NCBI RefSeq assembly: GCF_004323735.1
Contig: NZ_CP036455.1
Coordinates: 863,101-927,100 of the forward strand
Reading direction: 5' to 3'
Length of the DNA: 64,000 nucleotides
Source of the DNA: Streptomonospora litoralis
GTDB taxonomy: Bacteria; Actinomycetota; Actinomycetes; Streptosporangiales; Streptosporangiaceae
Made by a program: the position numbers and the translations under genes. Positions 36,427 through 52,517 of this stretch are shown here, one piece after another. The notes below the pieces were generated by a model. The model worked only from the letters and a program-made list of their open reading frames with translations, had not been told where the DNA came from and searched no databases. How positions within the stretch are numbered: the first letter of the stretch is position 1; each line of letters opens with the position of its first letter.

Positions 36427-38229
36427 ATGGGCACCTCCACACTCGTCGACACGTTTCGCGGGCACGCGCAGCGGGAGCCTGCCACTGTCGCCCTCGTGGC
36501 GTGTGCCGATCCGTTCGACCCCGGTTCGGACACGGTCTACACCTACGCCGACCTGGACGTGCAGGCCCGGCGTGTGGCCGCCCGGCTGGGGCGGGAGGTC
36601 GAGCCGGGCGCACGGGTGCTGCTCCAGACCACCGGAGCCGAGTTCGCCCGAGCCTTCCTCGGGTGCCTCTACGCGGGCCTGACCGCGGTCCCCGTTCCGC
36701 CGGCCGGCGACAACCGGCGCCACCGCGAGCGGCTCGCCGCCATCGTCCACGACACCGAGGCGCAAGCGCTGGTCGTGCCCGCCGCGGAGCGGGACCGCGC
36801 CGCGGAAGGGCTGCGCGCCTGCGGCGTGGACGGGTCGCTGGCATTGGTCCTGGACGAGGCCGAGTTGCCCCCGGCCGGTGACTGGACTCCGGCCCGCGCC
36901 GAAGGACCGGCCTTCCTGCAGTACACGTCCGGCAGCACGAGCCGTCCCAAAGGGGTGCCCGTCAGCCACGAGAACATCCTCGCCAACGCCGCCCACTGCC
37001 TGCGCATGACGGGCGCGACTCCCGCCGACAGGTGGGGCGGATGGCTGCCCATGCACCACGACTTCGGGCTGGTCTACCAGTTCCTCGGCCCGCTGGTTGC
37101 GGGCGCCTCGACGGTCCTCATGGAGCCCGGCGCGTTCCTGCGGCGCCCGCACGCCTGGCTGCACTTGGTTCACAATCGCGGCATCACGGTCTCCGGCGGT
37201 CCCAACTTCGCCTACGACCAGTGCAGCCGCCTCGTCACCGACGAGCAGATGGCCGGTGTGGACCTGTCCGGCTGGCGGAACGCCGTCAACGGATCGGAGC
37301 CCGTCAGCGCCGACGTCATCGAGCGTTTCACCAAGCGTTTCGCGCCCTTCGGACTGCGCCCCGGCACCATGACCGCCGGCTACGGCTTGGCCGAGGGAAC
37401 CGTGTGCGTGACACTCTCTCCGCCGGGCGTGCCCCCCGCGGTCACCCACGTGGACGCCGCCCGCCTCAGCCGGGACGAGTTCGTCCCCACCTCCCCCGAG
37501 TCCTCGCCGCGCCCCCGCGCCGTGAGCGCGTGCGGGCCGGCCGACAACGGCGGGTTCGACCTGCGCATCGTGGACCCCGACACCTGCGATCAGTTGGCCG
37601 ACGGCAGCATCGGCGAGGTGTGGCTGCGCGGCCCCAGCGTGGTCGCCGGCTACTGGCGCCGTCCGGAGGAGACCGCCGCGGTCTTCGGCGCCGCCACGGC
37701 GGACGGCGAGACCGGCTTCCTGCGGACCGGTGATCTCGGAGTCGTCCACGGCGGCCAAATCCACATCACCGGCCGCATCAAGGACGTGCTGGTCGTCAAC
37801 GGACGCAAGGTCTACCCGCACGACATCGAGGAAGCGGCGCGCGGCGCCCACGCGGCGCTGTCCACCGGAGTGGGCGCCGCCTTCACCGCGCCGGCGCTGG
37901 ACGGCGCCGAGCAGGTGGTGCTGGTCCACGAGTATCACGCCGCCGACCGCAGTGAGCACGCCCTCGCCGCCGCCGTCTCGAGGACTAGGGCGGACTTGGC
38001 CGCGGAGCTCGCAGTCTCCGTACCCGGGATCGTGCTGGTCCGCCGCGGCCAGGTGCACCGCACCTCCAGCGGCAAGATCCAGCGCCAGTCGACCCGCACC
38101 GCCTGGCTCGACGCGGATCTGCGCGTGCTGCATGCGGAGCTGTCCGAACCGCTGCAGCGGATGCTGACCGCCCACCGCTCCGCAGCAGGGTCCGACGGAG
38201 CCTCCGCGCGAGAGGCGGTGCAAGCGTGA
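36427..38229 (+). CDS. fatty acyl-AMP ligase (FAAL)
   Basis: 600 residues from the ATG at 36427 with GAAGGG 6 nt upstream; the frame extends upstream without homology. ANL-superfamily motifs: QYTSGSTSRPKGVPVSHENI (A3), WLPMHHDFGLV, TAGYGLAEGT (A5), GFLRTGDLG (A7), GRIKDVLVVNGRKVYPHDIE (A8) and the C-terminal SSGKIQRQSTR (A10 Lys). HDFGLV and the lack of a fused carrier fit stand-alone FAALs that form acyl-AMP and load it onto an ACP, here most simply the ACP encoded at 41705. First gene of the operon. Its stop overlaps the next GTG. Confidence 0.9.
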   Translation: MGTSTLVDTFRGHAQREPATVALVACADPFDPGSDTVYTYADLDVQARRVAARLGREVEPGARVLLQTTGAEFARAFLGCLYAGLTAVPVPPAGDNRRHRERLAAIVHDTEAQALVVPAAERDRAAEGLRACGVDGSLALVLDEAELPPAGDWTPARAEGPAFLQYTSGSTSRPKGVPVSHENILANAAHCLRMTGATPADRWGGWLPMHHDFGLVYQFLGPLVAGASTVLMEPGAFLRRPHAWLHLVHNRGITVSGGPNFAYDQCSRLVTDEQMAGVDLSGWRNAVNGSEPVSADVIERFTKRFAPFGLRPGTMTAGYGLAEGTVCVTLSPPGVPPAVTHVDAARLSRDEFVPTSPESSPRPRAVSACGPADNGGFDLRIVDPDTCDQLADGSIGEVWLRGPSVVAGYWRRPEETAAVFGAATADGETGFLRTGDLGVVHGGQIHITGRIKDVLVVNGRKVYPHDIEEAARGAHAALSTGVGAAFTAPALDGAEQVVLVHEYHAADRSEHALAAAVSRTRADLAAELAVSVPGIVLVRRGQVHRTSSGKIQRQSTRTAWLDADLRVLHAELSEPLQRMLTAHRSAAGSDGASAREAVQA

Positions 38230-39965
38230 GCACTCCGCTCGCCGAAGGCCCTGCCGGACCCGCGCCGGATTCCGCGGTGCCGCATTTGGGCGACCCCGGC
38301 GACCTCGCCAACCCCTTCTCCTATGCCCGCGCGGCGGAACTGGACCGGGTCGAGGGCTTCCCCGACGAGGCGTGCCGGGACCTGGACCGCCTCGGGGTGC
38401 CCGCGCACTATGTTCCGGTCGAGCACGGCGGGGTGCTGCAAGGCTACGACCGCCTCGTCTCGGTGGTCCGCCGGCTCGCCCGTCGCGACCTGACCCTGGC
38501 GGTGGCCCACGTCAAGACCTTCCTGGGCGCGGTGTGTGTCTGGACGGCGGGTGAGAAGGAGCAGAGAGCCGCGCTCGCCGCCCGCGTGCTGCGCGGCGAA
38601 CCGGTGGCATGGGCACTCACCGAGCCCGAGCACGGCAGCGACCTCTTCGCCTCCGGTACCGTCGCCGAGCCTGGGCCGGGCGGCTATCTGCTCACCGGGC
38701 GCAAGTGGCCCGTCAACAACGCCACACGCTCGGGCCTGGTGTGCGTACTCGCCCGGACCGATCCCGAAGGCGGGCCGCGGGGATTCAGTTTCCTGCTCGT
38801 CGACAAGGCCGCGCTGCCCTCCGCTTCCTTCGCGCATCTGCCCAAGGTGCGAACGCACGGCATCCGCGGTGCCGACATCAGCGGCATCGCATTCGAGCGG
38901 GCGCCCGTGCCCGCAGCTGCCCTGGTGGGCCGATCCGGCAACGGTATCGACACAGTGCTGCGGGCGCTGCTGCTCACGCGCACCGTAAGCACCGGTCTGT
39001 CGCTGGGCGCGGCCGATCAGGCCCTCGCGCTGACGGGCGGTTTCGTCCGGGAGGGCGTCGCCGCGGGGCGTCCGCTCCTCGAGATGGGGCGCAACCGGCG
39101 CATCCTGGGCAGGGCGCACGCCGCGCGCCTCGCCGCGGAGTCCGTCGTCGAGCTCGCGGCGCGCGGTCTGCACGTGCTGCCCGGCGAGGCCGCGGTTTCA
39201 GCGGCTGTCGCCAAATCCTTCGTCCCCACCGCCGTCGACCGGCTCATCGCCGACTGCGCCGACATCATGGGCGCGCGCGGCTTCCTCACCGAGCACTACG
39301 AGCACGGCCGCTTCCAGAAGCTGCAGCGCGATCACCGCATCGTCGGGATATTCGACGGGAACACCTTCGTCAACCAGCATTCCCTGATCCGCCAGTTCCC
39401 CGTCCTGGCCCGCCACCGCGCTTCCGGCCGCAGCGCCGGCCTCGCGCCGCTCGCCGACCTCGCCGAGACCGTCCCGCCCCTCGAACCCGACCGGCTGAGC
39501 CTGGTGGCGCACCGCGGCTGCTCGCTGGTGGGCGGCGCGGCAGACCTCGCCGAGCAGGTGGCCGCGGCGCCGGCGCCTCCGGCACTCGCGGCCGCAGCGC
39601 GCAGATTCGGCGAGCAGTGCGAGCGCGTGCACGAGCGGATCGCCCGGACGGACCCCGCGGCCGCGAAGAGCCCGCCCGCCCAGGCGTTCGTCCTGGCCTC
39701 CGACTACGAGGCCTGCTTCGCGGGAGCCGCAGCCCTGGCCCTGTGGCTGCACGGGCACCGCCGCGAGGCGCGCGGGCCGCAGGCACACCTGTGGCAGGGC
39801 GGGCTGTGGACCGAGGCCGTGCTCACCTACGTAGGCGAACTCCTGGAACAACGAGACGCCGTGCGCACCAGCGCTTTCGACCGGCTCGCCGCCGCGGTGG
39901 AGGGATCGGCCGGGGGTACGCTGCCCTCGCTCATCGGCGACGACGCGGAGGGCGGGAGACGATGA
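38226..39965 (+). CDS. acyl-CoA/acyl-ACP dehydrogenase-like protein 1
   Basis: 579 residues, long ACAD type: N-terminal helical, beta and C-terminal helical domains plus a ~150-residue C-terminal extension. The flavin/substrate loop ALTEPEHGSDL (residues 130-140) is intact. The position of the catalytic Glu (YEGT in classical enzymes) reads IFDGNTF with Asp377, a conservative substitution. It is paralogous to the next gene over the whole length, including the extension (YEACFAGAAALALWLHGHRR). A FAAL upstream and an ACP downstream suggest it introduces a double bond into an ACP-bound acyl chain. GTG start in a 4-nt overlap. Confidence 0.82.
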   Translation: MSTPLAEGPAGPAPDSAVPHLGDPGDLANPFSYARAAELDRVEGFPDEACRDLDRLGVPAHYVPVEHGGVLQGYDRLVSVVRRLARRDLTLAVAHVKTFLGAVCVWTAGEKEQRAALAARVLRGEPVAWALTEPEHGSDLFASGTVAEPGPGGYLLTGRKWPVNNATRSGLVCVLARTDPEGGPRGFSFLLVDKAALPSASFAHLPKVRTHGIRGADISGIAFERAPVPAAALVGRSGNGIDTVLRALLLTRTVSTGLSLGAADQALALTGGFVREGVAAGRPLLEMGRNRRILGRAHAARLAAESVVELAARGLHVLPGEAAVSAAVAKSFVPTAVDRLIADCADIMGARGFLTEHYEHGRFQKLQRDHRIVGIFDGNTFVNQHSLIRQFPVLARHRASGRSAGLAPLADLAETVPPLEPDRLSLVAHRGCSLVGGAADLAEQVAAAPAPPALAAAARRFGEQCERVHERIARTDPAAAKSPPAQAFVLASDYEACFAGAAALALWLHGHRREARGPQAHLWQGGLWTEAVLTYVGELLEQRDAVRTSAFDRLAAAVEGSAGGTLPSLIGDDAEGGRR

Positions 39966-41665
39966 CTCCGCATGTGACCGGTACCGCCGCCTTCGTCCGC
40001 GCGCTGGACGATGTGCTCGGCCACCCCTACGACCCGGGCAATCCGCTGGGCCACGCGCGCTTACTTGCCGCCGACGAGGACGCTCGGCTCCTGCCCGAAG
40101 CCGTCGCGGTGCTGGGCGAGTACGGGATCGGCGCCGAACTCGTCCCGGCGGAACTGGGCGGGCGCTTCGACCGGCTCGACCGGTTCGCCCGGCTGCTGCG
40201 CCGGGTCTGCACCCGCGACGTCTCACTGGGGTTCGCACGGGCCGGTACCGCCTTCACGGCCGCCTGCGATGTGTGGATCGGAGGTACCGGAGGCCAGCGC
40301 AAGGCCCTCGCGCAGAGCCTCGTCGCCGGGGGCACGATGGCGGGCGGATACCACGAGTTCGCCCACGGAGGCGACATAGGCCGTACACAGTGCCGGGCCG
40401 TACCCGATGGTCCCGGCACCCTGTTGCTCACCGGGACGAAGGACCTCGTAGCCAACATCGCCGAGGCCGACACTGTCCTCGTCTTCGCACGGACCGGCGA
40501 GGCCCCCGGCGACCGGAGCCACTCCCAGATCCTCGTGGACGCCCGCGGCGCAGCCGCACACACGCTGCGGACCGTGCCCCGCTCGGCCACCTCCGGACTG
40601 CGCGGCGTCCCGCTGGGCGGCGCCGTATTCACCGACCTGCCGCTCCCGCGATCGGCGGTCGTGGGCGGCGAGACCGGCGGCGGCATGGAGACCGCGCTGC
40701 GCTCCTTCCAGCTCGCGCGAATCGTGGGACCGGCGATGATGATCGGCGGCGCCGAATCGGGACTGCGCGCCGCGGTCCGTTTCGCGCTTACCCGCATGCT
40801 CTACGGCGCCCCGGCCGCCGACATCCCCATGGTGCGCGCGATGCTCACCGAGTCCTTCGCGGACCTGCTGACCTGCGAGGCGGCGTCTACCGTTGCGGCC
40901 CGCACCGCCCACCTCCGCCCCGAGCGACTCAGCGTCCCGGCCTGCGCACTCGAACCGCTGGCGTCGCAGATCCTGGCGGGCGCGATGCACCGGCTGTCGA
41001 CCGTCATGGGGGCGCACTTCTATATCCGCGGCGGTGAGCACGGCGTCTTCGAGAAGCAGTTGCGCGACACCGACGCCCTCGCCTTCGCCCACGGCGGTCG
41101 CGCTGCGTCCCAGGCGGCGCTCATCCCGCAGCTGCCCCTCCTGGCCGAGTGCTCCCGGCCCGGAGAGGAGCCGCTTCGTTCGGTCTACGCGCTCGACGCG
41201 CCGCTGCCACCGCTGGACTGGGGCGCCCTGTCCGCCACCGCCGGCGGGTGCGACGAGCTGACGTCGGCGCTGCACCTGTTCGGCGGAGGCGCGGGGCCGC
41301 GCGTCGCGGGCCTGATCGACGGGTTCGTCGACGAACTGGCGGCTCTGCGGCGTACCTGCTCCCGTATCGGGCCCGAGCAGCTCACAGCCGGAGACGCCCA
41401 CCTCTTCGACCTGGCCGACCGCTACGGCACGGTGCTGGCCGCCGCGGCGTGCGTGGGCCTGTGGGAGCACAACCGACGCGGAGCCGACGCCTTCACGGCC
41501 GACCCCGCATGGCTCGAGGCGGCCCTCTCCCGGCTCGCGGGCCGACTGGGCCGGGGGGACCCGAGCCTGCCCGACGACGTCGCGCAGCGCCTTTTCGGTG
41601 AGCTGCGCGAACGCTGCGAACAGGGCCGCAGCCTGGAGCTGACCGCAGGATCCGTCCGACGCTGA
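39962..41665 (+). CDS. acyl-CoA dehydrogenase-like protein 2, catalytic acid missing
   Basis: 567 residues from the ATG at 39962, overlapping the previous stop. Full-length paralogue of the preceding protein. The TEPEHGSD loop is changed to HEFAHGGDI and the catalytic position reads AFAHGGR (376-380), with no Glu or Asp. It is unlikely to be active alone. By analogy with mycobacterial FadE heterotetramers, where one subunit carries the catalytic residue, it may form a mixed complex with protein 1 (inference). Codon 34 is TTA (40061-40063). A 39-nt gap follows before ACP1. Confidence 0.78.
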   Translation: MTPHVTGTAAFVRALDDVLGHPYDPGNPLGHARLLAADEDARLLPEAVAVLGEYGIGAELVPAELGGRFDRLDRFARLLRRVCTRDVSLGFARAGTAFTAACDVWIGGTGGQRKALAQSLVAGGTMAGGYHEFAHGGDIGRTQCRAVPDGPGTLLLTGTKDLVANIAEADTVLVFARTGEAPGDRSHSQILVDARGAAAHTLRTVPRSATSGLRGVPLGGAVFTDLPLPRSAVVGGETGGGMETALRSFQLARIVGPAMMIGGAESGLRAAVRFALTRMLYGAPAADIPMVRAMLTESFADLLTCEAASTVAARTAHLRPERLSVPACALEPLASQILAGAMHRLSTVMGAHFYIRGGEHGVFEKQLRDTDALAFAHGGRAASQAALIPQLPLLAECSRPGEEPLRSVYALDAPLPPLDWGALSATAGGCDELTSALHLFGGGAGPRVAGLIDGFVDELAALRRTCSRIGPEQLTAGDAHLFDLADRYGTVLAAAACVGLWEHNRRGADAFTADPAWLEAALSRLAGRLGRGDPSLPDDVAQRLFGELRERCEQGRSLELTAGSVRR

Positions 41666-41704
41666 CCCCCGATACCCAGTAGTTCACAGATCGAGGAAGC
41701 CACC

Positions 41705-42007
41705 ATGCCCTCCCATGCCTCTACCCCCTCGACCGACGACCTGTCCGCCTGGCTGTCGGGATGTGTCGCGAAGTACGCGCGGCTGCGCCCCGACCAGATC
41801 GAGGCCGACCGTCCGCTGACCGACTACGGGCTGGACTCGGTCAACGTGTTCGTGCTGTGCGGCGACATCGAAGACCGCTTCGGCATCGAGATCGAGCCCA
41901 CGAGCGCCTGGGACTATCCGACCGTGCAGGCCTTCGCCGATCACCTCGCCCACACGATGGCACAGCGCAGCGCTGCACCGTCGGAAACCGCGGGAGGTGC
42001 ACGGTGA
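41705..42007 (+). CDS. acyl carrier protein 1
   Basis: 100 residues. Phosphopantetheine attachment Ser45 in DYGLDSVNV, followed by the acidic recognition helix VLCGDIEDRFGIEIEP. GAGGAAG precedes the ATG. Placed right after the FAAL and the dehydrogenase pair, it is the likely carrier of the fatty chain. The next gene's GTG overlaps its stop, coupling it to the ketosynthase. Confidence 0.9.
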   Translation: MPSHASTPSTDDLSAWLSGCVAKYARLRPDQIEADRPLTDYGLDSVNVFVLCGDIEDRFGIEIEPTSAWDYPTVQAFADHLAHTMAQRSAAPSETAGGAR

Positions 42008-42936
42008 CCCGCATCGTCGACGTGGGCGCCCATGTCCCACCGGAGAGCGTGCCGGTGGCCGAGATCGGCCGGGACCTGGGTATGGATTCGGCTCACCTGC
42101 GCGTGATCCGGCGGATCTTCGGGTTCTCCGAGGTGCGTATGGCACCCGGCATGGACCAGGCGGGCATCATGGCGGCGGCCGTGTCCCGGCTCGACGCGTT
42201 CGCCGACGTGCGCCACCGTGTCCGCTACGTCGTCCAGGCCCGGACCATGCCGGTGGCCTCCCCCTACCCCGTCAACCCGCTCCATGAGGCGTGCCGGAAG
42301 CTGGGTCTGGACCACGCCACCGCGTTCACCCTCACCGAGCACGCCTGCGCCGGCGGGCTTCTGGCACTGCACACGTGCGGGGAGATGCTTGCGGCCGACG
42401 GCGACCCCGACGCGCTTGGGCTCGTGCTCGTCGGAGAGAAGATCTTCACGCCGATGGCCCGCCAGGTGCCCGGATCCAGTATCAACGGGGAGTCGACGGC
42501 GGCGGTGCTGGTCTCGCCGTCCGGCCGGGGGGCCGACCAGGTTGTCGCGTACGCCAGCCGGGCGTACCCGCGGTTCCACGGCCGGCTGGAGGCGGAGAAG
42601 GCGACCCCCGAGTTCCAGCAGATGTATCCGGAGGCGCTCGCCGAGGTCCTCGTCGAAGCTGCCGCCCGCGGCGGCCTGGACCTCGCCGACGTCGACCTCA
42701 TCCTTCCGCACAACGTCGCCAAGGTCTCCTGGCAGCGCCTGTGCCGCGTACTGGGTTACCCGGTCGAGCGCGTCTTCCTGGACAACGTCCCCGTCACCGG
42801 GCACTGCTTCGGCGCCGATGCGTTCGTGGCCTACCGCGCGCTCGTCGACGGCGGGCGCCTCAAGCCCGGCGACCACTACCTCATGGCCACCGCCGGACTG
42901 GGCGCGACCTTCGCCGCCACCCTGGTCCGGCACTGA
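42004..42936 (+). CDS. 3-oxoacyl-ACP synthase III-like (KAS III) enzyme
   Basis: 310 residues, thiolase fold. The nucleophile is Cys115 in TEHACAGGLLAL and the first catalytic His is His236 in ILPHNVAK. The Asn of classical KAS III (GNTSAA) is replaced: the segment reads NVPVTGHCFGADAF, with His267. A Cys-His-His arrangement could still decarboxylate a malonyl unit, or serve acyl transfer as in CerJ-like KAS III relatives. Probably acts on the chain held by ACP1. A GTG start in a 4-nt overlap supports tight coupling. Confidence 0.82.
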   Translation: MTRIVDVGAHVPPESVPVAEIGRDLGMDSAHLRVIRRIFGFSEVRMAPGMDQAGIMAAAVSRLDAFADVRHRVRYVVQARTMPVASPYPVNPLHEACRKLGLDHATAFTLTEHACAGGLLALHTCGEMLAADGDPDALGLVLVGEKIFTPMARQVPGSSINGESTAAVLVSPSGRGADQVVAYASRAYPRFHGRLEAEKATPEFQQMYPEALAEVLVEAAARGGLDLADVDLILPHNVAKVSWQRLCRVLGYPVERVFLDNVPVTGHCFGADAFVAYRALVDGGRLKPGDHYLMATAGLGATFAATLVRH

Positions 42937-42957
42937 CGGCACCGACTCGGAGGAACC

Positions 42958-44361
42958 ATGGCCCAGACCGTCTTCGGCGAGTCCGCCGAGCCGCCCCGCG
43001 GCTTCGTGGCACGCCTCAAGCATGCTGTGGCCGGCCCCGGCACCGGCCTCGTATTTCTCGGCAACTTCGAAGTCGAGGAGGAGTGGGCGCACGGCGAGGT
43101 CGGCCTGCCCAAGATCGCAGTGGCCAAGGGCCGGGCCGTCGTCAACCGGATGGAGGAGTTCGCCCTGCTGCTCGCCGGTGCACAGGACTGCGTCGTCCTC
43201 AAAGCCGAGCCCGACTCCGGCTACCTGGCCTACCTGGAACAACTCGGCGCGGAACTGCCCGAACGCATCGTCGTCGCCGACCAGGCGCCCGACCGCACCG
43301 TCACCGAGGACGCTCTGGCCGACCCGGGCGTACTCGACCGGCTCACCGAACTCGCCGGGCGCGGCCGTCTCCTGCTGCCGCACGGCGTTTCCACCCGCGA
43401 GGAGGACCTCGCCGCCAAAGTCGGCATGCGCCTGGCCGCTCCCGGCGCCGCGATCTGCAAGCACGTCAACAGCAAGGTCTACAGCCGGCTCGCCGCCGAA
43501 GCAGTGGGGCTGCGCCAGGCCGCGGGCTGGGTATGCCGGACGCCGGCGGAGTTCCGTGCGGCAGCCGAGGAGGCGCGGCCGCTGCTGCGCGCCGGGGGAA
43601 AAGTAGTGGTCAAGGACGCTTACGGGGTCTCCGGCAAGGGCTTGGCCGTCGTCGAGAGCGACAAGCGACTGGCCCTGATCGCCCGCAAGGTCGCCGCAGC
43701 GGCGGACCGGGCAGGTACCGACCGGGTCGCGCTGGTCGTCGAGGAATGGGTCGCCAAGGACACCGACCTCAACTACCAGTTCACCGTCGCCGGCGACGGG
43801 TCGGTGCACTTCGACTTCGTCAAGGAGGCCATCACCGACCACGGCGTCCACAAGGGCCACCGGATGCCCGCGCGGCTGACGGCCGAACAGCGGGCCGAGC
43901 TGCGCAGCGCCGCCGAGCTGCTGGGTCGCCGCCTGCACGCCGACGGCTACCGGGGAGTGGTCGGCGTGGACGCCATGACCGACCCCCGCGGCGGCGTCTA
44001 TCCGGTGGTGGAGATCAACGCCCGCAACAACATGTCCACCTACCAGACCGTCCTGCAAGAGCGTTATCTGGGCGAGGGCCGGGTCGCCCTCGCTCGCCAG
44101 TACCCGCTGGAGCTGCGGCGTCCGCTGCCGTTCGAGCGGTTGGCCGAGGCACTCGGCGATCGGCTGCTGCGGGCCCGCGGCGACTCGGGGCTGCTCGTCA
44201 ACAACTTTGCCACCGTCAACGCGGGGGCCGCCGGGTCGGGTGAGCTTTTCGAAGGCCGGCTCTACGGGCTGCTCGTCGCCGATTCCCAGGCGGAGCTGGA
44301 GGAGGCCGACGCCCGCATCGCCGCCCGCCTCGCCGACCTCGCCGCCGGGGTGCGGCAGTGA
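42958..44361 (+). CDS. ATP-grasp ligase with pre-ATP-grasp domain (BtrJ/PGM1-like)
   Basis: 467 residues. The N-terminal pre-ATP-grasp domain contains LGNFEVEEEWAHGEVGLPKI (residues 34-53), and the ATP-grasp domain has KVVVKDAYGVSGKG (215-228, Lys219 contacting ATP) and the Mg-binding VEINARNN (351-358). Such enzymes activate a carboxylate as acyl phosphate. BtrJ uses this to load glutamate onto the ACP BtrI, and PGM1 makes peptide bonds. The immediately following PLP decarboxylase and ACP favour the BtrJ-type role: an amino acid is attached to ACP2. GGAGGA lies upstream of the ATG. Confidence 0.85.
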   Translation: MAQTVFGESAEPPRGFVARLKHAVAGPGTGLVFLGNFEVEEEWAHGEVGLPKIAVAKGRAVVNRMEEFALLLAGAQDCVVLKAEPDSGYLAYLEQLGAELPERIVVADQAPDRTVTEDALADPGVLDRLTELAGRGRLLLPHGVSTREEDLAAKVGMRLAAPGAAICKHVNSKVYSRLAAEAVGLRQAAGWVCRTPAEFRAAAEEARPLLRAGGKVVVKDAYGVSGKGLAVVESDKRLALIARKVAAAADRAGTDRVALVVEEWVAKDTDLNYQFTVAGDGSVHFDFVKEAITDHGVHKGHRMPARLTAEQRAELRSAAELLGRRLHADGYRGVVGVDAMTDPRGGVYPVVEINARNNMSTYQTVLQERYLGEGRVALARQYPLELRRPLPFERLAEALGDRLLRARGDSGLLVNNFATVNAGAAGSGELFEGRLYGLLVADSQAELEEADARIAARLADLAAGVRQ

Positions 44362-44390
44362 CAGGGCAGGAACGACCGCAAAGGACACCG

Positions 44391-45662
44391 ATGACCCACG
44401 AAACGGCGCACGACAACCGGCTGCGCAGCCTGGCCGCGCAGTACGGCACCCCGCTCTACGTCTACGACGCCGACTCCTTCGGCCGCCAGTACCGCGGACT
44501 GCGGGAGGCCCTGTGCCCGCGCGTCGAGATGTTCTTCTCGCTCAAGGCCAACCCCAACGTCTCGGTCTGCGCCCTGCTGCACTCCTACGGGGCCCGTGCC
44601 GAGGTCTCGTCACTGGTCGAGCTGCGCACCGCCCGCCGCGCGGGCGTCGCGCCCGAGGACATCATCTTCCTCGGGCCCGGCAAGAGCGCAGCGGAGCTCG
44701 CCGCCTGCCTGGACGAGGGGATCGCCGCCGTAGTGTGCGAGTCGTTCGGCGAACTGGAGTCACTCGACCGCATCGCCGCCGACCGCGGGCAGCGGGCTCC
44801 TGTGACCCTGCGGGTCAACCCCGCCTTCTCGGTGAAGGGGTCGCGGTTGACCATGGGCGGCAAGCCCCGCCAGTTCGGGATCGACGAACAGGCCCTGTAC
44901 GAAGCCCCCGACCTGGTCGACCGGTTCCCGTCGCTGCGGATCGCGGGCGTGCACGCCTACATGGGCACCCGCATCCTCGCGTCCGAGGTCGTGGAGGAGA
45001 ACACCGCGAAGATCCTGGACATGGCCGAGCGCATCGCCGAGCGCTTGGGCTTCCCCCTTGAGCTCGTCGACATCGGTGGCGGCCTGGGCATCGCCTACTT
45101 CCACGGTGAGTCCGACCTCGACGCGGCCGAACTAACCGAGCGGATCAACCCCGTGCTGGAGAAGTTCGCCGCCGCCCGGCCGCAGACCCGGATGATCATG
45201 GAGTTGGGGCGGTACCTCACCGCGCCCGCCGGCGAATACGTAGTCGGTGTGCGCTACGTCAAGGAGTCCATGGGGGAGAGTTTCGCGGTATCCGACGGCG
45301 GAACCCACCACCACATGGCCGCGGTGGGAATCGGCTCTTTCGTCAAGCGCAACTTTCCGATCCGCCTCGTCGGCGCCGAGCCCGCCGCCCCGACCCGGCC
45401 CTGGAACGTCACCGGCCCCCTGTGCACGCCCAACGACACCCTGGTCACCAAAGCGGAGCTGCCCGACCCGAAACCGGGGGACCTGCTGGCCGTCGGCCGC
45501 TCCGGAGCCTACGGCCCAAGCGCCTCGCCCGGACTCTTCCTCAGCCACGGCTACCCGGCCGAAGTCCTGGTGCACGAGGGCCGGGAACTGCTCATCCGGG
45601 AACGCGATACCCCGGACGACCTCTTCGCCAAACAGCGCCTGCACGCCTTCCCCGCACGCTGA
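44391..45662 (+). CDS. type III PLP-dependent decarboxylase (BtrK/DapDC-like)
   Basis: 423 residues from the ATG at 44391 (AAAGGA upstream); a GTG at 44358 overlapping the ligase stop is an alternative. Alanine-racemase-like barrel with PLP lysine Lys52 in FFSLKANPN, phosphate loop DIGGGLGIAY, and the C-terminal barrel with Cys345 and Asp349 in GPLCTPND, which complete the active site across the dimer. Family members decarboxylate diaminopimelate, ornithine or, in BtrK, glutamyl-ACP. Context predicts decarboxylation of an aminoacyl-ACP2. The free amino-acid substrate cannot be read from the sequence. Confidence 0.88.
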   Translation: MTHETAHDNRLRSLAAQYGTPLYVYDADSFGRQYRGLREALCPRVEMFFSLKANPNVSVCALLHSYGARAEVSSLVELRTARRAGVAPEDIIFLGPGKSAAELAACLDEGIAAVVCESFGELESLDRIAADRGQRAPVTLRVNPAFSVKGSRLTMGGKPRQFGIDEQALYEAPDLVDRFPSLRIAGVHAYMGTRILASEVVEENTAKILDMAERIAERLGFPLELVDIGGGLGIAYFHGESDLDAAELTERINPVLEKFAAARPQTRMIMELGRYLTAPAGEYVVGVRYVKESMGESFAVSDGGTHHHMAAVGIGSFVKRNFPIRLVGAEPAAPTRPWNVTGPLCTPNDTLVTKAELPDPKPGDLLAVGRSGAYGPSASPGLFLSHGYPAEVLVHEGRELLIRERDTPDDLFAKQRLHAFPAR

Positions 45663-45706
45663 ACCGATCCTGATTTTCCAATCCGCATCTCAAGGAGTAC
45701 ACCGCG

Positions 45707-45994
45707 ATGACCGACACCGCCCCCGCCCCCTCCAGCGCCGCATCCGCCCGCGACCGGGTCGCCGGCCGCATCATCGATGCCCTCGCCCAGGTCCTCAAGC
45801 AGGACCCCGCCTCCCTGACAGCCGGCACCCGCCTCTTCGACGACCTGGGACTGGACTCCACGACGGTGCTGGAGCTGCTGATGCGCCTGGAGGAGGAGCT
45901 GGAGGTCGAGTTCGACACCGAAGGGCTGGAGCAGCACCACTTCGAGACGGTGGACACCCTGACCGACTTCGCCGTCGCGCAGTTGGAGAGCTAG
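45707..45994 (+). CDS. acyl carrier protein 2 (BtrI-like)
   Basis: 95 residues. Ser51 in DDLGLDSTTVLELLMRLEEE is the phosphopantetheine site. The T-T-V after the Ser and the very acidic helix II distinguish it from ACP1, so the two carriers probably serve different partners. AAGGAG precedes the ATG. Position directly after the ATP-grasp and decarboxylase genes supports a role as the aminoacyl carrier. Confidence 0.9.
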   Translation: MTDTAPAPSSAASARDRVAGRIIDALAQVLKQDPASLTAGTRLFDDLGLDSTTVLELLMRLEEELEVEFDTEGLEQHHFETVDTLTDFAVAQLES

Positions 45995-45999
45995 CGGCC

Positions 46000-46914
46000 G
46001 TGTTCAGCCACGCACCTTCCCTCATAGCCGCGCAGCGGCGGCGAAGCCCGTCGTCGCCGCTGCGGCCGGTCGCGGCCCGGCACCGCGTATTCGGTCCCGG
46101 TGCGCCGTTCGACACGGCCGGCCTGCCCTATATGCGCGACATCGCAGCCTTCGCCGGTGTCGCCCTGCGGCCCGACTTCGACCCCTATACGGCGCTGTGT
46201 AACAGTTACGCGTCCATGTCCCGGGCGATGCTGGATGCGCTGGGTCCGCTCGGCCACGTGGACGGCATCCTCGTGGCCCACAGCACCCCGGAGCTGGGCT
46301 CGACCTCCCCGGCCTTCGCCCTCAGCACGGCGCTGCCGTCGGCGCGCCTGGCGTTCGCGGTCTCCGACCAGGGCACCGCCTCGCCCTACACCGCCCTGCG
46401 CATCGCCGGCGACCTGGTTCGCGGGGCCGGGTTGCGCCGAGTGCTATTGGTGGTGCTGGAGGCGAGCACGCTGCCCTACGACACCCGGCCGCCGGAAGAG
46501 ACCGTGCCCGTCCGAGACTCCGCGGCGGCAGTCGTGCTGGAAGCCGGAGAACCCGGCGCCGACGGGCCGGAAACGGCCACGACGCTGGCGCAGCGTGCCG
46601 GTCTGGACCCGCGCGCCTTGCCAGGGGCCCTCGCCCGGGAGCTCGACGGGATCCTCGACGGCCGCGAGCCGGAGGCGATCGTATGCGGAGCGGGGCTGGA
46701 CCCCGAGCTGATCCCGGGGCACTATTCCGGAGTGCATACCGCCGCGCCCGGTCGGCCCAACACCGGTACCTGGGCCGCCCTCGCCGAGCCCGAACCAGCC
46801 GCGGCTACCGGCCGACCACTCGTCCTCGTCGACTTCGAACCCCTGCTCGGCTGCCTGAGTGCAGTCGCGCTCGACAAGCCCGTGTCCGGTGACCCGGTGG
46901 AGGTGGAGCGATGA
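46000..46914 (+). CDS. KAS III-like thiolase-fold protein without active-site Cys
   Basis: 304 residues from the GTG at 46000 (GGAGAG nine nt upstream). The frame runs far upstream without homology. It has the thiolase pattern ILVAHSTPELGSTSPAF, then VSDQGTASPYTALRIAGDLV, where alignment to the KAS III gene at 42004 puts Thr126 in place of the nucleophilic Cys. PVRDSAAAVVLEAG and PGRPNTGTW mark the C-terminal half. It could be a non-elongating partner (chain-length-factor-like), or a transferase using other residues. The next ATG overlaps its stop. Confidence 0.68.
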   Translation: MFSHAPSLIAAQRRRSPSSPLRPVAARHRVFGPGAPFDTAGLPYMRDIAAFAGVALRPDFDPYTALCNSYASMSRAMLDALGPLGHVDGILVAHSTPELGSTSPAFALSTALPSARLAFAVSDQGTASPYTALRIAGDLVRGAGLRRVLLVVLEASTLPYDTRPPEETVPVRDSAAAVVLEAGEPGADGPETATTLAQRAGLDPRALPGALARELDGILDGREPEAIVCGAGLDPELIPGHYSGVHTAAPGRPNTGTWAALAEPEPAAATGRPLVLVDFEPLLGCLSAVALDKPVSGDPVEVER

Positions 46915-47576
46915 CCGAGGCACCGCCCGCTGCGGAGTCCGCGGCCACCGGCGGGCACGACCCGACCGCCCCCGCCAGCCCCGACGGGGTCCGGTTGCGT
47001 GCCCGCGAGGCGGGCCTGTGCGCGGCGCTGCGAATGCTGTCGGACGGAGCGGGGGCCGGAATCCCGCAGGGCCCCGGCGGCCACGTGGTCGCGCTCGACC
47101 GGCCCGGAGTCCCGCAGGCAGCCACGGAGCTGCGCTTAGACGGGGGGACCCTCACGTTTGGGGCGGCCCCACAGGGGCTCGAAGGAAACCCCCCGGCGCC
47201 GCCTGCCTGGACAGCGGGCCTGGCCTGGCTGCGCCTGGGCTGCTCGGAGCGGCTTCTCGCTTCCTGCCTGGGCTACCTGGGCGAACGGACCGCGGGAGGC
47301 TCGCCGCTTCTTGTGCAGCAGATGGTCCGTGGTCAGCTCGCCGAGGTCCGCGGCAGCCAGCTGGAGGCGGAACTCGTTCTCGGCGCCGGCGCCGGCCCGG
47401 ACGTGCTCCAAGACGTGCACGAAGCACTCACCCGGGCCGACCGCGTCCTGTGCCGGCTGCTCGGTGCGTCCAGCGTCTTGGAGTCCGGACCGGGCCAGGA
47501 GGCGTATGCGTCCGAGCTGCTGGCCGACGTCTACACCCCCGCCCCCTTCCAGCGCACCCGGGAGGCAGCCCTATGA
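46911..47576 (+). CDS. stand-alone acyl-CoA dehydrogenase C-terminal-half protein
   Basis: 221 residues. Residues ~101-215 match the helical C-terminal domain of acyl-CoA dehydrogenases: AWLRLGCSERLLASCLGYLG, ERTAGGSPLLVQQMVRGQLA and EVRGSQLEAEL mirror the usual 'YareRkqFGrpLaefQ..r..LAdm...leaar' pattern. The N-terminal FAD/substrate domains are missing and residues 1-55 are low complexity. It is not an obvious frameshift remnant, because it is precisely coupled to both neighbours by ATGA overlaps. It may be a structural subunit for the dehydrogenase encoded next. Codon 76 is TTA. Confidence 0.65.
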   Translation: MTEAPPAAESAATGGHDPTAPASPDGVRLRAREAGLCAALRMLSDGAGAGIPQGPGGHVVALDRPGVPQAATELRLDGGTLTFGAAPQGLEGNPPAPPAWTAGLAWLRLGCSERLLASCLGYLGERTAGGSPLLVQQMVRGQLAEVRGSQLEAELVLGAGAGPDVLQDVHEALTRADRVLCRLLGASSVLESGPGQEAYASELLADVYTPAPFQRTREAAL

Positions 47577-48739
47577 GCGAACCGAGCCCCGACAACCTGG
47601 CCGGCCTGCGCGAGCACGTCCGAGCCTGGAGCGAAGAGCTGGGACCGATCACCCCCCGGCTGGAGCGCGACCCGTCGTCGGTGGCCGACTACCTCGGCTC
47701 CGCGGCGTTTCGCGCCCAAGCCCGCATGGCCGTCCCCCCGGAGTACCGGCTGCCGCCCCAAGGACCCGATGAGGACCTGGTCCCGGGTCACACCACAGCT
47801 GTGCACCGGGTCGTCATGGCCGAGGAGATGGCGGCCGTCGACCCCGCCATTCTGCTGGCCGCCCCCGGCGCCTCCATGGCCGGCGGCATCGTCGAGGTGA
47901 TGGCCGACGACGAGCAGCGACAACGGTTCTTCCGGCGCGTCCAGGAGTACCCGACCTGGACTTTCTTCGCTCTGACCGAGCCCGCGCACGGTTCCGACGC
48001 GATGGGCGTGGAAAGCACCCTCGCCCCCGCCGGTGGTGGCGACTTCGAGCTGAGCGGCGCCAAGCGCTACGTCGGTAACGCCGCCCGCGCCCGACTGGGC
48101 GTGGTGATCGCCCGCACCCGCCCCGGACCGCTGGGCATAGCCGCGGCCCTCGTCGACACCGGCGACCCCGGGTTCACCGCGACACCGCTGCCGACCCTGG
48201 GCATGCGCGGCAACCAGGTCTGTGCCGTGGAGATGGATCGCGTCCGCGTCCGGGCCGAGGACGTCCTGGGCAGGCACCTGCCGGCCAGCCGGCGCGGCAT
48301 CTGGAGCGCCCTGCGGTTCCTCGACGGGTTCCGGCCGGGCGTGGCGGCAATGGCGGTGGGGATCGCAAGAGCCGCGCACACCTACCTCACGCAGCACCGG
48401 GAGGAACTGCCCGTCGACAGCACGGAGCGAGTGCGGGCGATGGGGCGCCGCGTCGACGCGGCCCGTCTGATGGCGCTGGACGCGGCACGGGCCTATGACG
48501 CCGACCGCGAGGACGCCGGACACCGCGCTTCGGCCGCCAAGTACCGCGCCTGCCGACTCGCCGAGGAGGCCACCGCCGAGGCGCTCGTCCTCCTCGGGCC
48601 GGGCGCGCGGATCGACCATCCCGCGCTGGACCGGTACGCGCGCGACGCCCGCGCCGTCGAGTTCATGGAAGGAACGCGCAACGTGCACCGGCTCAACGTG
48701 TTCCAAGGAGTCGTGCGCGGGCGGTTGAGCGCCGCCTAG
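47573..48739 (+). CDS. acyl-CoA/acyl-ACP dehydrogenase 3
   Basis: 388 residues, classical length. FALTEPAHGSD is the FAD/substrate loop, GAKRYVGNAARA precedes the beta domain, and the catalytic Glu366 is present in VEFMEGTRNVHRLNVF. It is the only one of the operon's dehydrogenase-like proteins with an unmodified catalytic site. ATG behind GGAGG with a 4-nt overlap to the half-dehydrogenase. It may oxidise the aminoacyl- or extended chain on ACP2, comparable to carrier-bound prolyl dehydrogenases (inference). Confidence 0.85.
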   Translation: MSEPSPDNLAGLREHVRAWSEELGPITPRLERDPSSVADYLGSAAFRAQARMAVPPEYRLPPQGPDEDLVPGHTTAVHRVVMAEEMAAVDPAILLAAPGASMAGGIVEVMADDEQRQRFFRRVQEYPTWTFFALTEPAHGSDAMGVESTLAPAGGGDFELSGAKRYVGNAARARLGVVIARTRPGPLGIAAALVDTGDPGFTATPLPTLGMRGNQVCAVEMDRVRVRAEDVLGRHLPASRRGIWSALRFLDGFRPGVAAMAVGIARAAHTYLTQHREELPVDSTERVRAMGRRVDAARLMALDAARAYDADREDAGHRASAAKYRACRLAEEATAEALVLLGPGARIDHPALDRYARDARAVEFMEGTRNVHRLNVFQGVVRGRLSAA

Positions 48740-48840
48740 CGCGCCGACCGGAAGCGCCCCCGGTGTCTGCGGGCGGTACGCCTGGAGGCCGGGAGTGAGC
48801 CGCCGGTCCGCGGGCGGAGAACGAAGAGGGAAGGTATGAG

Positions 48841-50271
48841 TTGACAGCGTCCGACTCCGACTCCGACGCCGGTGCCCCGGCCCGGCCGAGCACCCGTCGT
48901 GCAGTACTGCGCCTGGGCGCGCCCATCATCGTCGCCAACCTGGTCAACGTCTTCCTGCCGTTCGTGGTGCTTGCCCTGATGGGACGGATGAGCGACGAGG
49001 CCGTCTACCTGCGCTCGCTCTTCCTGCCGATGTCCCAGCTCTTCGTTGCGTTCGTCGTCGCCGTGGACATGAGCAACCAGGTAGCCGTCGCGGTGGCCCA
49101 TGGGGCAAAGCGGCGCACTGACGTCGTCGCCACGACGGTCAACACGGCGCGCATCGCCTTCGGCGGGGGAATCGTGCTCGTCGCGGCGCTCGCCGCGGCC
49201 GCACCCCTGTTCGCCGACCTGCTCCACGTCGAGGAGGCGGCCCGGGCCGAGTTCCTCGCCTTCGCGCGCTGGACGTCGGCCGCCCTGGTGCTCCAGTTCG
49301 GCCCGGCCGTGTGCGCCTCGGCGCTGCGAGGGATCGGGCGGGCACAGGCGGCGATGGCGGTCGTGGCCACCCTGGCGGTACTGGAGACCGCCGGTGTGGT
49401 CGTGGTCGGTCTGTGGGCGGGCATGGGGCCGATGAGCCTCCCGGCGAGCATCGCGGTCTCCAGCGTGTGCGCAGCGGCCGTAGGGCTGGTGCTGCTGCGG
49501 CGCGAGGGACTGGGCGGCGCCGCCTGGATGCTGCCTCTCAGTGCCGAGCCCGCCCGCTGGCTGCTGCGGGTGGGCGTGCCCGTGGCGGGGACGCATCTGC
49601 TGCTGACCGGTTTCACCACGGCGCAGCTGAGCGTGATCGGTCCCTATGGGCCCGAGGCGGTGGCGGGTTTCGCCGCGGCCAATACCTTCCAGGGAGTCCT
49701 TCTGCAGCCGGCGATCGCGCTCGGCACCGCCACCGCGATCCTGCTCAACCAGAATGTCGGTGCCGGCCGCGGCGCCCGGCACGGCCGTACGCTCCGAGCC
49801 GGTATGGAGGCGGCCGTGGTGGTCTACGCCGCGATCGCCCTGGCCGTGTGGTCGGGGGCCGACCTCATCGGCGCCGTGGCCAGTGCCAATCCCGCGATGG
49901 CCGCTGAGACCGCGCGCTTCTTCGCCATCGTCGGCCTCACTTACGTGCTCATGGGAAGCCTGCTGACGCTGTTCACCATCATGGAACAGGTCGGCATGGG
50001 CTTTTCGGCCCTCACCCTGAACATCGCCTATTTCGCCGCGCTGGTGGTGGTCGGTGCGCATGTCAGCGCGCGTATGGGCGATCCCGATGGGCTGTACTGG
50101 ACGCTGGCCGTGGGCAATGTGATCGGCCCCACCTGCGCGGTGGCGGTCGTCCCCCTCGTCTTGCGCCGGTTGCGCGAGCGCACCGCCGCGGCCGCCGCGG
50201 CCGCCCCGGCCGTCGGCGGGGACACTGCGCCCGCCCCCATGGCAGATGCGAGAACGGAGTCCGACCAGTGA
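48841..50271 (+). CDS. MATE-family efflux transporter
   Basis: 476 residues, about twelve transmembrane helices in two related halves (APIIVANLVNVFLPFVVLAL opening the first, VGVPVAGTHLLLTGF opening the second). The MATE-type QNVGAGRGARHGR loop between helices is present, and the N-terminal helix lacks an exporter signal peptide. TTG start at 48841 behind AGGGAAGG. 101 nt separate it from the dehydrogenase, so an internal promoter is possible. Expected to export the operon's product and so provide self-protection. Confidence 0.85.
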   Translation: MTASDSDSDAGAPARPSTRRAVLRLGAPIIVANLVNVFLPFVVLALMGRMSDEAVYLRSLFLPMSQLFVAFVVAVDMSNQVAVAVAHGAKRRTDVVATTVNTARIAFGGGIVLVAALAAAAPLFADLLHVEEAARAEFLAFARWTSAALVLQFGPAVCASALRGIGRAQAAMAVVATLAVLETAGVVVVGLWAGMGPMSLPASIAVSSVCAAAVGLVLLRREGLGGAAWMLPLSAEPARWLLRVGVPVAGTHLLLTGFTTAQLSVIGPYGPEAVAGFAAANTFQGVLLQPAIALGTATAILLNQNVGAGRGARHGRTLRAGMEAAVVVYAAIALAVWSGADLIGAVASANPAMAAETARFFAIVGLTYVLMGSLLTLFTIMEQVGMGFSALTLNIAYFAALVVVGAHVSARMGDPDGLYWTLAVGNVIGPTCAVAVVPLVLRRLRERTAAAAAAAPAVGGDTAPAPMADARTESDQ

Positions 50272-51761
50272 ACGCCGACACCCGAACTGTCCACACCCGC
50301 ACCGTCCCCGCACCGGGGCGGCCCGACCGCGCCCCTCTCACTTGGGGGCAGCGCCAGGTCTACCGGGACATGCACCGCGCCGCGGCCGGCAAACCCTACA
50401 ACGACGGCGGCGGCATCCGGCTGCCGGAAGGGCTGGACCTGGATGCGGCGCTCGACGTCGTCGTCGCGCTGGTCCAGCGCCACGAGTCGCTGCGCACGAC
50501 CGTCGGACCCGGGTCCGACGGCGCGCTCGTCCAGCGCGTGGCGGACTCGTGCGAGCTGCGCATCGAGGTCGTCGAACTGCCGGACAGCGCCCTCGACGAG
50601 GTGCTGTCGCTGGTGGCTGCCGAAGAGGAGCGCTTGCTCGGCACCGTCTTCGACGTCTCCGCCGATCCGCTGGTGCGCCCGGTCGTCTTCTGCCACCGCG
50701 GCGTTCCGGGGGGCGTTTCGCTGGCCGTGCCGAAGATCGCGGCGGATCTGGCCGGAGTCCGGCTGCTGATGGCCGACCTCGCCGCTCTGGCCGAGTCGGC
50801 CGCGAGCGGACGGCCGGCGCCGCCGCCTCCCGAGGGCCGGCAGCCCTTCGACCAGGCGCTGTACGAGCAGTCGGCGGACGGCCGCCGGGTCGAGGCCAGT
50901 GCGTTGCGCCGCATCCGCGAGGAATACGCCGCGTTCCCCGCCCGCCTGTTCGGACCGCCCGCCGAGCCCATGCCGCAGCGCTACTGGCGCGGCGGGATCG
51001 TTTCCCGGGCGATTCCGATGGCCGCTGGTGCGATCGCGGCGCGCCGGCGAACCGGTACCACCGTCGTCCTGCTCGCCGCCGCGTCGGCCGTGCTAGCCCA
51101 CAGCGCGGGCCGGTCCGGTATCGGCCTGCAGCTCATCTCCCGCAATCGTCACGCAGCGGACCAGCGCGCAGTCGTCGGCACGGTCGTGCAGAACGTGCCC
51201 GCGGTACTGCGGGTCGGCGGACTCGGATTCACCGAGCTTCTCACCGCGACGTGGTCGCGGACGATGCGCGCCTACCGGGCAGCGCAGTTCGACCTCGCCC
51301 GCGCGGCCGACGTGCTGGCGGAGGTCGAGAGATCCCGCGGCGAGACCGTCGACGCCGACTGCTACTTCAACGACACCCGCGCCGACCACGCGCCCGGTCC
51401 GAACGCGGCCGCAGCGGACTCCGCCGATATCCGCGCGGCACAGGCCGAAACCGAGTTCCGCTGGGAGGAGCGCGTCGAGCACGACGCGCTGAGCGTCTTC
51501 GTCGAGGTCTTCGACCATCCCGGCCGGACCGGACTGATGCGCCTGTGCATGTACGTCGATACGGCCCAGGTGCCACCGGGGCTGGCCAGGCGGATGCTGC
51601 TGGCGGTGGAGAGGCTGCTGGTGGAGGCGTCCGACAGGGATTTGTCCGCCGCCGAAGTGGCATCGCTCGCCGCAGTCGAGCCCAGCGACGCCGACCGCGC
51701 CGAGGACCCCGGAGACGGCCGGCGGAGCGCGTCGTGGCGGACCCGCGGCACGCCGGGATAG
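50268..51761 (+). CDS. free-standing condensation-domain-like acyltransferase with degenerate active site
   Basis: 497 residues. The NRPS condensation/CoA-dependent acyltransferase fold is shown by LTWGQRQVYRDMH (C1-like), HESLRTTV (C2-like), the HHxxxDG region and NDTRAD...FRWEERVEHD near the C-terminal half. The catalytic motif reads PKIAADL (155-161): the second His is Lys156, Asp160 is kept and Gly is Leu161. Normal His-assisted amide formation is therefore questionable. GTG overlaps the transporter stop. As last gene of the operon it is the obvious candidate to join or bind the two carrier-bound chains. Confidence 0.72.
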   Translation: MNADTRTVHTRTVPAPGRPDRAPLTWGQRQVYRDMHRAAAGKPYNDGGGIRLPEGLDLDAALDVVVALVQRHESLRTTVGPGSDGALVQRVADSCELRIEVVELPDSALDEVLSLVAAEEERLLGTVFDVSADPLVRPVVFCHRGVPGGVSLAVPKIAADLAGVRLLMADLAALAESAASGRPAPPPPEGRQPFDQALYEQSADGRRVEASALRRIREEYAAFPARLFGPPAEPMPQRYWRGGIVSRAIPMAAGAIAARRRTGTTVVLLAAASAVLAHSAGRSGIGLQLISRNRHAADQRAVVGTVVQNVPAVLRVGGLGFTELLTATWSRTMRAYRAAQFDLARAADVLAEVERSRGETVDADCYFNDTRADHAPGPNAAAADSADIRAAQAETEFRWEERVEHDALSVFVEVFDHPGRTGLMRLCMYVDTAQVPPGLARRMLLAVERLLVEASDRDLSAAEVASLAAVEPSDADRAEDPGDGRRSASWRTRGTPG

Positions 51762-52044
51762 GCCGCGTAAGGGCAGGGCCGTATCGGTCCGGCTCCCTCG
51801 TGCAGTCGGGCCGTGCTGCCCCCCAGCGGCTGGTGCGGCCCCACCACCCGCGGCCGGGCTGCGGGCCGACGGTGAAATGTGCGGCGGCCCGGTCGGCAGT
51901 GCAGCCATGCATCCGGAAGAAAGGTTTCCAGTTTCTAGTGAATTCCGTGTTTAGAATTGTGTGCATCGGCGGCCGACTGAAATGCTAGTGGGCCTGGGTG
52001 ATTTCATCCGCTGAGCTGGCTTGCGTCGCGGCTGGTCAGGAGGT
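51762..52044. other. spacer after the operon with a low-GC patch
   Basis: No gene. Bases ~51915-52015 are much more A/T-rich than the surroundings and adjoin the transposase remnant, suggesting inserted DNA. Confidence 0.4.
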
Positions 52045-52408: not shown

Positions 52409-52517
52409 CGGGGGCCTTGGAGGGCAAAGAGGTGGGGGCCCGGTTCTTCCAGCGGGCTCCGTTGTTGTGTGTGCGGGCTACTCTAGGATCGCTACGGGGC
52501 TGTGACCAGTACTGCCA

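Follow-up and report, generated by a model that had tools for sequence, protein, structure and literature searches.

A stretch of 64,000 nucleotides from the chromosome of Streptomonospora litoralis (NZ_CP036455.1, positions 863,101 to 927,100 of the forward strand), here called the window and numbered from its first letter, contains a conserved, modular operon of 13 genes. All 13 open reading frames (ORFs) lie on the forward strand, at 36427–51761. The product of the operon is, with reasonable probability, an exported amide or ester of an N-acyl-(dehydro-β-alanyl) unit, built without a nonribosomal peptide synthetase (NRPS). The evidence consists of the genes themselves, their order, conservation and co-occurrence, residues that are kept or missing, and two model folds, and every reaction described below is inferred from these. 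The genes are listed here, with ACP for acyl carrier protein, ACAD for acyl-CoA dehydrogenase, KAS III for β-ketoacyl-ACP synthase III, PLP for pyridoxal phosphate and MATE for multidrug and toxin extrusion.

36427–38229, +: FAAL, fatty acyl-AMP ligase (module 1); AMP-binding match, E 5e-67
38226–39965, +: ACAD1, 579 aa, probable acyl-ACP desaturase subunit; ACAD family match, FDGN replaces the usual YEGT
39962–41665, +: ACAD2, 567 aa, ACAD-like partner protein; family match, His where Glu is usual
41705–42007, +: ACP1, putative fatty-acyl carrier; PP-binding match, E 2e-15, GLDS site
42004–42936, +: KS3, KAS III-like acyltransferase; KAS III C-terminal match, with Cys115, His236 and His267
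42958–44361, +: ATP-grasp ligase; PreATP-grasp PF18604 plus ATP-grasp
44358–45662, +: BtrK-like PLP decarboxylase; match to the ornithine/diaminopimelate/arginine decarboxylase family
45707–45994, +: ACP2, putative amino-acid carrier; PP-binding match, E 9e-11, GLDS site
46000–46914, +: KSl, KAS III-fold protein without the Cys; weak FabH-like match (E 2e-4, NCBIfam only) and model fold
46911–47576, +: hACAD, truncated ACAD-fold protein; weak ACAD C-terminal match (E 9e-4, below cut-off) and model fold
47573–48739, +: ACAD3, full-length ACAD; ACAD match, catalytic-type Glu366
48841–50271, +: predicted MATE-family exporter; MatE match, E 1e-24
50268–51761, +: Cdom, free-standing NRPS-condensation-like protein; Condensation match

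An initial annotation, made from the letters alone, had listed 13 genes on one strand with mostly 4-nt overlaps. ORFs, third-position GC (GC3) and family scans all agree with that list, and overlaps of 4 nt are found at 7 of the 12 junctions, the other five being gaps of 39, 21, 44, 5 and 101 nt. GC3 lies between 0.84 and 0.95 in each of the 13 genes and is the highest of the three codon positions. A first GC3 listing passed only 9 of the 13 genes; the other four (ACAD2, KS3, KSl and ACAD3) were missed because the longest ORF of each begins far upstream. The ORF starts are heuristic, and the ORF caller was trained on genes of the window, including the 13 of the operon. The domain calls come from Pfam and NCBIfam scans of the operon proteins, where several of the best NCBIfam rows for FAAL are of FAAL/FadD32 type, each under its cut-off. 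The same scan found no NRPS and no AMP-binding enzyme other than FAAL. Gene content thus supports two further parts of the initial annotation, namely an acyl chain on ACP1 with a decarboxylated amino acid on ACP2, and an exporter in an operon that lacks NRPS and polyketide synthase. A promoter and terminator scan gave a signal no better than chance.

In the proposed route FAAL would activate a fatty acid and load it on ACP1, where ACAD1 and ACAD2 would desaturate the chain. On the second carrier, the ATP-grasp enzyme would join aspartate to ACP2 through its β-carboxyl (side chain), and the BtrK-like decarboxylase would take off the α-carboxyl to give β-alanyl-ACP2. KS3, with KSl as its partner, would then take over the ACP1-bound acyl chain through Cys115 and pass it to the β-amine, forming a C–N bond without extending the chain. 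ACAD3 and hACAD would oxidise the N-acyl-β-alanyl-ACP2 to an enamide, dehydro-β-alanine (Dba), a step that the initial annotation had not proposed. Finally, Cdom would pass the acyl-Dba unit to a small nucleophile and the MATE protein would export the product. The first step leans on a proposal made for rotihibin (PMC8552735), and the next four on the logic of bolagladin (PMC7756342) and AFC-BC11 (PMC12186527) biosynthesis together with gene neighbourhoods. The transfer of the acyl-Dba unit by Cdom is the least certain step.

The conservation of the 13-gene order is far beyond chance. A conserved-neighbourhood search, which the initial annotation had suggested as a check, finds the full contiguous order by ORF calls in the window, G023, G068 and L110; by tblastn the same order is seen in G287, L072 and L125. 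In an order-level sample of 297 genomes, the window's own included, close relatives of the ATP-grasp protein (E below 1e-90) are found in 21 genomes at 22 places. A scan of named genomes gave 209 ATP-grasp relatives, and the best 80 of these are the basis of the locus counts; 69 of the 80 have at least 5 kb upstream and at least 6 kb downstream, and counts out of 69 use these. A neighbourhood is taken as ~10 kb (up to 20 kb for 22 loci), shorter at contig ends, and a gene is scored as present at over 200 bits for ACAD3 and over 250 for FAAL. Module 2, which consists of KS3, the ATP-grasp ligase, the decarboxylase, ACP2, KSl, hACAD and ACAD3, is complete in 52 of the 69 actinobacterial loci, where complete means that all seven genes are somewhere in the locus, contiguity not being demanded. 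The remaining loci have the ATP-grasp gene only (nine), everything except the two ACADs (five) or other sets (three). Among 95 distinct loci, one of them the window, the seven core genes form an uninterrupted run in one order and on one strand in 57.

What surrounds the core varies. An NRPS gene is near at least 18 of the 52 full-core loci, a count that rests on one ORF cluster (the main cluster) and is, like the other NRPS counts, a lower bound. A main-cluster NRPS ORF is near none of the 13 full-core loci that carry FAAL and near 18 of the 39 without FAAL. A phosphopantetheinyl transferase (PPTase) is near 29 of the 52. SbnA- or SbnB-like genes, of the kind used for diaminopropionate (Dpr), are near 17 of the 52, with both present in 11 and the main NRPS cluster in 15; curated cut-offs are passed by one SbnA-like protein (L079, a locus with the ATP-grasp gene only) and one SbnB-like protein (L104, full core). 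Adenylation codes from three relatives repeat DVW/ASD, with several domains unread and a rough motif pattern, and are given no weight. A separate group is formed by nine Amycolatopsis loci (L075, L079, L091, L093, L113, L114, L116, L119, L127), where the ATP-grasp gene has flanks without KS3, decarboxylase and ACP2 and adjoins KS-type, SbnA/SbnB-like and NRPS genes.

The decarboxylase adjoins a free-standing ACP, as the Dba-forming logic requires, and both genes are present in 58 of the 69 loci, with each alone in one. Its best solved relatives are BtrK structures, at 295 bits against 172 for the best diaminopimelate decarboxylase, which bears out the earlier assignment to the BtrK kind. A link to exosortase through TIGR03099 was dropped, as the score is below cut-off. 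The operon has no VinN-type adenylating enzyme for Asp and has the ATP-grasp protein in its place, whose best PDB profile matches include PGM1 and another ATP-grasp peptide ligase. A homologue of methylaspartate mutase E lies upstream of KS3 in 5 of the 80 loci (L136, L137, L144, L145 and L146), with two genes between them, one asparagine-synthetase-A-like and one glutamate-synthase-like (a flavin mononucleotide protein); this points to a C4, aspartate-type substrate. In L137 this conserved set occupies 4796–8929, and L136, L137 and L145 also have a homologue of the B12 small subunit as a separate ORF. Together, the mutase and SbnA/SbnB neighbourhoods favour an aspartate-type (β-alanyl) unit over the glutamate and 4-aminobutyrate (GABA) of BtrK.

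The core includes two probable pairs, KS3 with KSl and ACAD3 with hACAD. Identical sequences, and rows that fell outside length limits, were removed before residues were counted. In KS3, Cys115 and His236 are kept in 84 of 84 aligned sequences. The canonical FabH Cys-His-Asn triad is not present, since His267 occupies the Asn position in all 84, and KS3 was rejected as a chain-extending KAS III on the grounds that the FabH Asn is missing from every row. In KSl, which the initial annotation had already described as KAS-like without Cys, Thr126 faces Cys115 of KS3 in a profile alignment; across 69 rows this column varies, with Cys outside its six commonest residues. The model of KSl has a FabH-like fold (pLDDT 88.8; best Foldseek hit E 2.2e-10, TM 0.57). 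Of the 69 loci, 58 have both KS3 and KSl and one has KS3 without KSl, a co-occurrence that makes it probable that KSl is a non-catalytic partner of KS3. Such a pair would be like the PqsBC-type KAS III heterodimer, in which one subunit of KAS III fold has Cys and His and the other lacks Cys. In a similar way, ACAD3 keeps Glu366 of the YEGT-type motif, presumably the catalytic base of ACADs, in 68 of 68 sequences, and hACAD, as the term half-ACAD had implied, is modelled as a truncated ACAD (pLDDT 88.6; best Foldseek hit E 1.8e-4, TM 0.46). The two are found together in all 53 loci (of 69) that have either, so that hACAD is a probable partner of ACAD3, and together they probably oxidise the unit to dehydro-β-alanine.

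Module 1 (FAAL, ACAD1, ACAD2 and ACP1) can exist apart from the core. In a phylum sample of 396 genomes, relatives of ACAD2 (E at most 1e-40) were found in six, the window's own included. Three of the other five (G630, G467 and G564) have module 1 together without the core, in the order FAAL-ACAD1-ACAD2-ACP1 in G467 and G564 and ACAD1-ACAD2-ACP1-FAAL in G630; in G478 and G489, ACAD2 is the only module 1 gene seen. Among the 69 loci, ACAD1 and ACAD2 are together in all 11 that have either. On a tree of 94 ATP-grasp sequences the FAAL label (22 rows) takes six changes, at least three of them forced by well-supported branches, compared with a mean of 19.9 for shuffled labels. Module 1 has therefore joined or been lost several times. 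As a known counterpart, the rotihibin genes rthH–rthK (FAAL–ACAD–ACAD–ACP) have been likened to ramoplanin, and their proposed role is to provide an NRPS with cis-2-decenoyl (PMC8552735). Module 1 of the operon has the same gene set and order as RthHIJK. In rotihibin, however, an NRPS is proposed to receive the acyl chain directly. The operon has no NRPS, and in the rest of the genome a single further condensation-domain region was found, ~2.35 Mb away.

FAAL-type loci have no main-cluster NRPS nearby, but several of them carry a free-standing condensation-like protein and a MATE protein, and so it is natural to think of the acyl-Dba unit as handed over to a small acceptor. In loci with an NRPS, its own condensation domain can perform this next step. 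Some relatives carry aminotransferase, GFO/IDH/MocA and inositol-monophosphatase-type genes, and others (L074, L135, L138 and L142) have varying subsets of UDP-glucose dehydrogenase, epimerase, glycosyltransferase, DegT aminotransferase and further genes near the ATP-grasp gene (L074 scanned). These cyclitol- or sugar-type genes hint at amino-cyclitol or amino-sugar head groups, or glycosylated products, in those relatives. The window operon has neither type. The MATE protein was also considered as a solanimycin marker and rejected, as its score of 60 bits is far below the cut-off of 780 and solanimycin has the α isomer, dehydro-α-alanine. It is worth noting that L043 has two proteins without a Pfam match (11445–12506 and 2177–3220), with relatives in L109, L118, L129, L140 and L149; members of this family are ~350–610 aa long, and several relatives have them close to genes for FAAL, MATE and condensation-like proteins.

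A number of observations weigh against an aspartate-based, Cdom-released acyl-Dba product. BtrK, the nearest solved relative of the decarboxylase, acts on glutamyl-ACP, so a GABA unit is possible. The mutase E subunit of L137 passes the Pfam cut-off and falls below that of the NCBIfam equivalog (149.7 vs 390.1 bits), and the mutase homologue could serve an adjacent NRPS instead. Both module 1 ACADs lack the usual Glu of the YEGT-type motif, with FDGN in ACAD1 and His in ACAD2, and the operon of Thermobifida lacks both genes. Of 19 aligned Cdom sequences, 17 keep the second (catalytic) His of the HHxxxDG motif; the other two, from the window (Lys156) and from its nearest relative, Thermobifida, have Lys, and the last step may use another enzyme or chemistry. 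No PPTase is encoded in the operon, and two are found elsewhere in the genome. The acylation step may also name the wrong enzyme, going by AFC-BC11, where FAAL acylates the amine and a KAS III-like protein releases the product; in favour of KS3 as the N-acylating enzyme, KS3 and KSl also occur in 39 full-core loci that lack FAAL. Finally, a link from the olenamidonins to the ATP-grasp cassette would be one of shared parts only, by description.

Three other outcomes were considered for the same genes. With glutamate as substrate, ACP2 would carry a 4-aminobutyryl unit as in butirosin, and ACAD3 with hACAD would give an N-acyl-4-aminocrotonyl-ACP2 that may cyclise to a pyrroline or lactam. The comparison of the initial annotation with BtrI, BtrJ and BtrK is chemically sound, and a BtrK-type enzyme is indeed present, with BtrK structures as its best solved relatives; the neighbouring mutase and SbnA/SbnB genes speak for a C4/Dba unit all the same, and BolN, which is BtrK-like, is proposed to act on aspartyl-ACP (PMC7756342). 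Glutamate was therefore set below aspartate on neighbourhood context and is kept as an unlikely rival. Less likely again is an oligomer, in which the ATP-grasp enzyme and the decarboxylase would cycle several times on ACP2 before acylation and give acyl-(Dba)n, in the manner of AfcQ and AfcP. ATP-grasp ligases form amide bonds, as the matches to PGM1 and another peptide ligase recall, loading is iterative without C domains in AFC-BC11 (PMC12186527), and the FAAL-type full-core loci have no main-cluster NRPS, but nothing in the sequence fixes n, and the NRPS-linked members fit a single Dba, by analogy with olenamidonin only.

The acyl-Dba unit could also be a starter for an NRPS of the same genome (seven condensation domains near 3.26–3.28 Mb of G000:C1), with no free product. 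The genome does hold this one other condensation-domain region, and NRPS genes lie near at least 18 of the 52 full-core relatives. Such a role is very unlikely for an operon with its own exporter and condensation-like protein, whose 13-gene order recurs in other genera and whose Thermobifida homologue sits at the same chromosomal site. A bolder version of the main proposal, rather doubtful as a whole, is an ATP-grasp-primed assembly line that needs no NRPS and turns out acyl-Dba or acyl-(Dba)n as free lipids. Two half-dead heteromers (KS3/KSl and ACAD3/hACAD) would carry out N-acylation and desaturation on one carrier, a Lys-type Cdom would release the product, and the line would be a new and widespread class in actinobacteria. 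If true, its products would be enamide foldamer-like lipids, in some relatives with aminosugar- or aminocyclitol-type heads.

The upstream boundary of the operon follows from another member of the genus. The two genes at 34245–35947 were considered as members and rejected, because the same-genus genome G047 has both at the same site without the operon; it carries MoeZ, an ogt-like gene, these two genes and two UvrD-type helicase genes there. The operon is also missing at this site in G054 and G040. G026 and G075 have no helicase gene within the compared stretch, so the site comparison covers three of five same-genus genomes, and none of the five listed has an ATP-grasp match. In Thermobifida cellulosilytica (L071) the operon without ACAD1 and ACAD2 is found at the same site, together with the gene of a regulator that in the window is located as follows:

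52518–53189, −: LuxR-type regulator, possible regulator of the operon; family match, adjoins the operon in Thermobifida (L071) and Micromonospora phaseoli (L110)

The region from 36000 to 54400 thus looks like an island of ~18 kb, missing at the same site in the three same-genus genomes, with a homologous operon there in Thermobifida. This would fit either a site that is a hot spot for insertions or an old acquisition followed by losses. Between the operon and the helicase genes, 53514–54446 (reverse strand) encodes a homologue of AadA/ANT(9)-like aminoglycoside nucleotidyltransferases, unmatched at this site in Thermobifida and in the compared same-genus stretches. The segment 51760–52500 is low in coding signal and by eye resembles a decayed transposase on the reverse strand; Pfam is blank for two ORFs there.

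If the acyl-Dba proposal holds, many actinobacterial products would owe this unit to a single cassette of seven genes and its new loading enzyme, given the 209 ATP-grasp relatives, and the 13-gene form would be the compact and apparently self-contained version of the cassette. It would offer a testable system for enamide lipids and a handle for genome mining.

Among known systems, butirosin shares an ATP-grasp protein, a BtrK decarboxylase and an ACP with the operon, BtrJ being the ATP-grasp and BtrI the ACP counterpart. In butirosin biosynthesis the glutamate-derived unit ends on an aminoglycoside, and no ACAD, FAAL or KAS pair is known to take part. Ishigamide was rejected as a matching pathway, its published account, as far as available, being silent on amide formation. 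The initial annotation recognised no known pathway, and this did not hold, as module 1 corresponds to rotihibin RthH–K (PMC8552735) and the remainder follows bolagladin (PMC7756342) and AFC-BC11 (PMC12186527). Its term "uncharacterised" still applies to the ATP-grasp version and to the 13-gene combination, within the open-access literature. No account of an ATP-grasp version of the Dba pathway was found in that literature; subscription papers, including the autucedine original, were outside the search.

Acyl-Dba units occur in the antibacterial olenamidonins (PMC11204786) and the antifungal AFC-BC11 compounds (PMC12186527). Olenamidonins and autucedines contain Dpr, Dba and a variable acyl chain, plus Phe and Gly (PMC11204786). 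Loci with the core, SbnA/SbnB-like genes and an NRPS fit this make-up of acyl-Dba on a Dpr-containing peptide, as also in enamidonin, whereas these compounds are NRPS-made cyclic peptides and the window operon has neither NRPS nor Dpr genes. In the proposed bolagladin route, Asp is loaded on a free ACP by a VinN-type enzyme and loses its carboxyl to a BtrK-like decarboxylase, after which a KAS III homologue attaches the acyl group to the amine and the ACAD BolQ forms Dba; deletion of bolQ gave β-alanine in place of Dba, and deletion of bolN abolished production (PMC7756342). The free ACP, BtrK-like decarboxylase, KAS III homologues (proposed for N-acylation) and ACAD acting (as proposed) on an N-acyl-β-alanyl thioester are all shared (BolO/BolC/BolN/BolM/BolP/BolQ). 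Bolagladin differs in having a VinN-type enzyme where the window has ATP-grasp and a modular NRPS that finishes the peptide, and the available part of its account names no half-ACAD partner. For AFC-BC11, Asp loading, on-carrier decarboxylation, amine acylation by FAAL and KAS III-type transfer have been carried out in vitro (PMC12186527). This system (AfcQ/K/P/A/L/E) resembles the operon in having FAAL, carrier-bound Asp converted to β-alanine, KAS III-like enzymes, an ACAD expected to make Dba and no condensation-domain NRPS. It differs in its iterative VinN-type AfcQ, single carrier, lack of any condensation domain and (Dba)3-dehydrolysine product, and its amine is acylated directly by FAAL, with release by the KAS III-like AfcL. 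As the core has the protein kinds of bolagladin and AFC-BC11 with ATP-grasp for the VinN-type enzyme, the operon would represent an ATP-grasp-primed, NRPS-free, two-carrier form of Dba-lipid biosynthesis.

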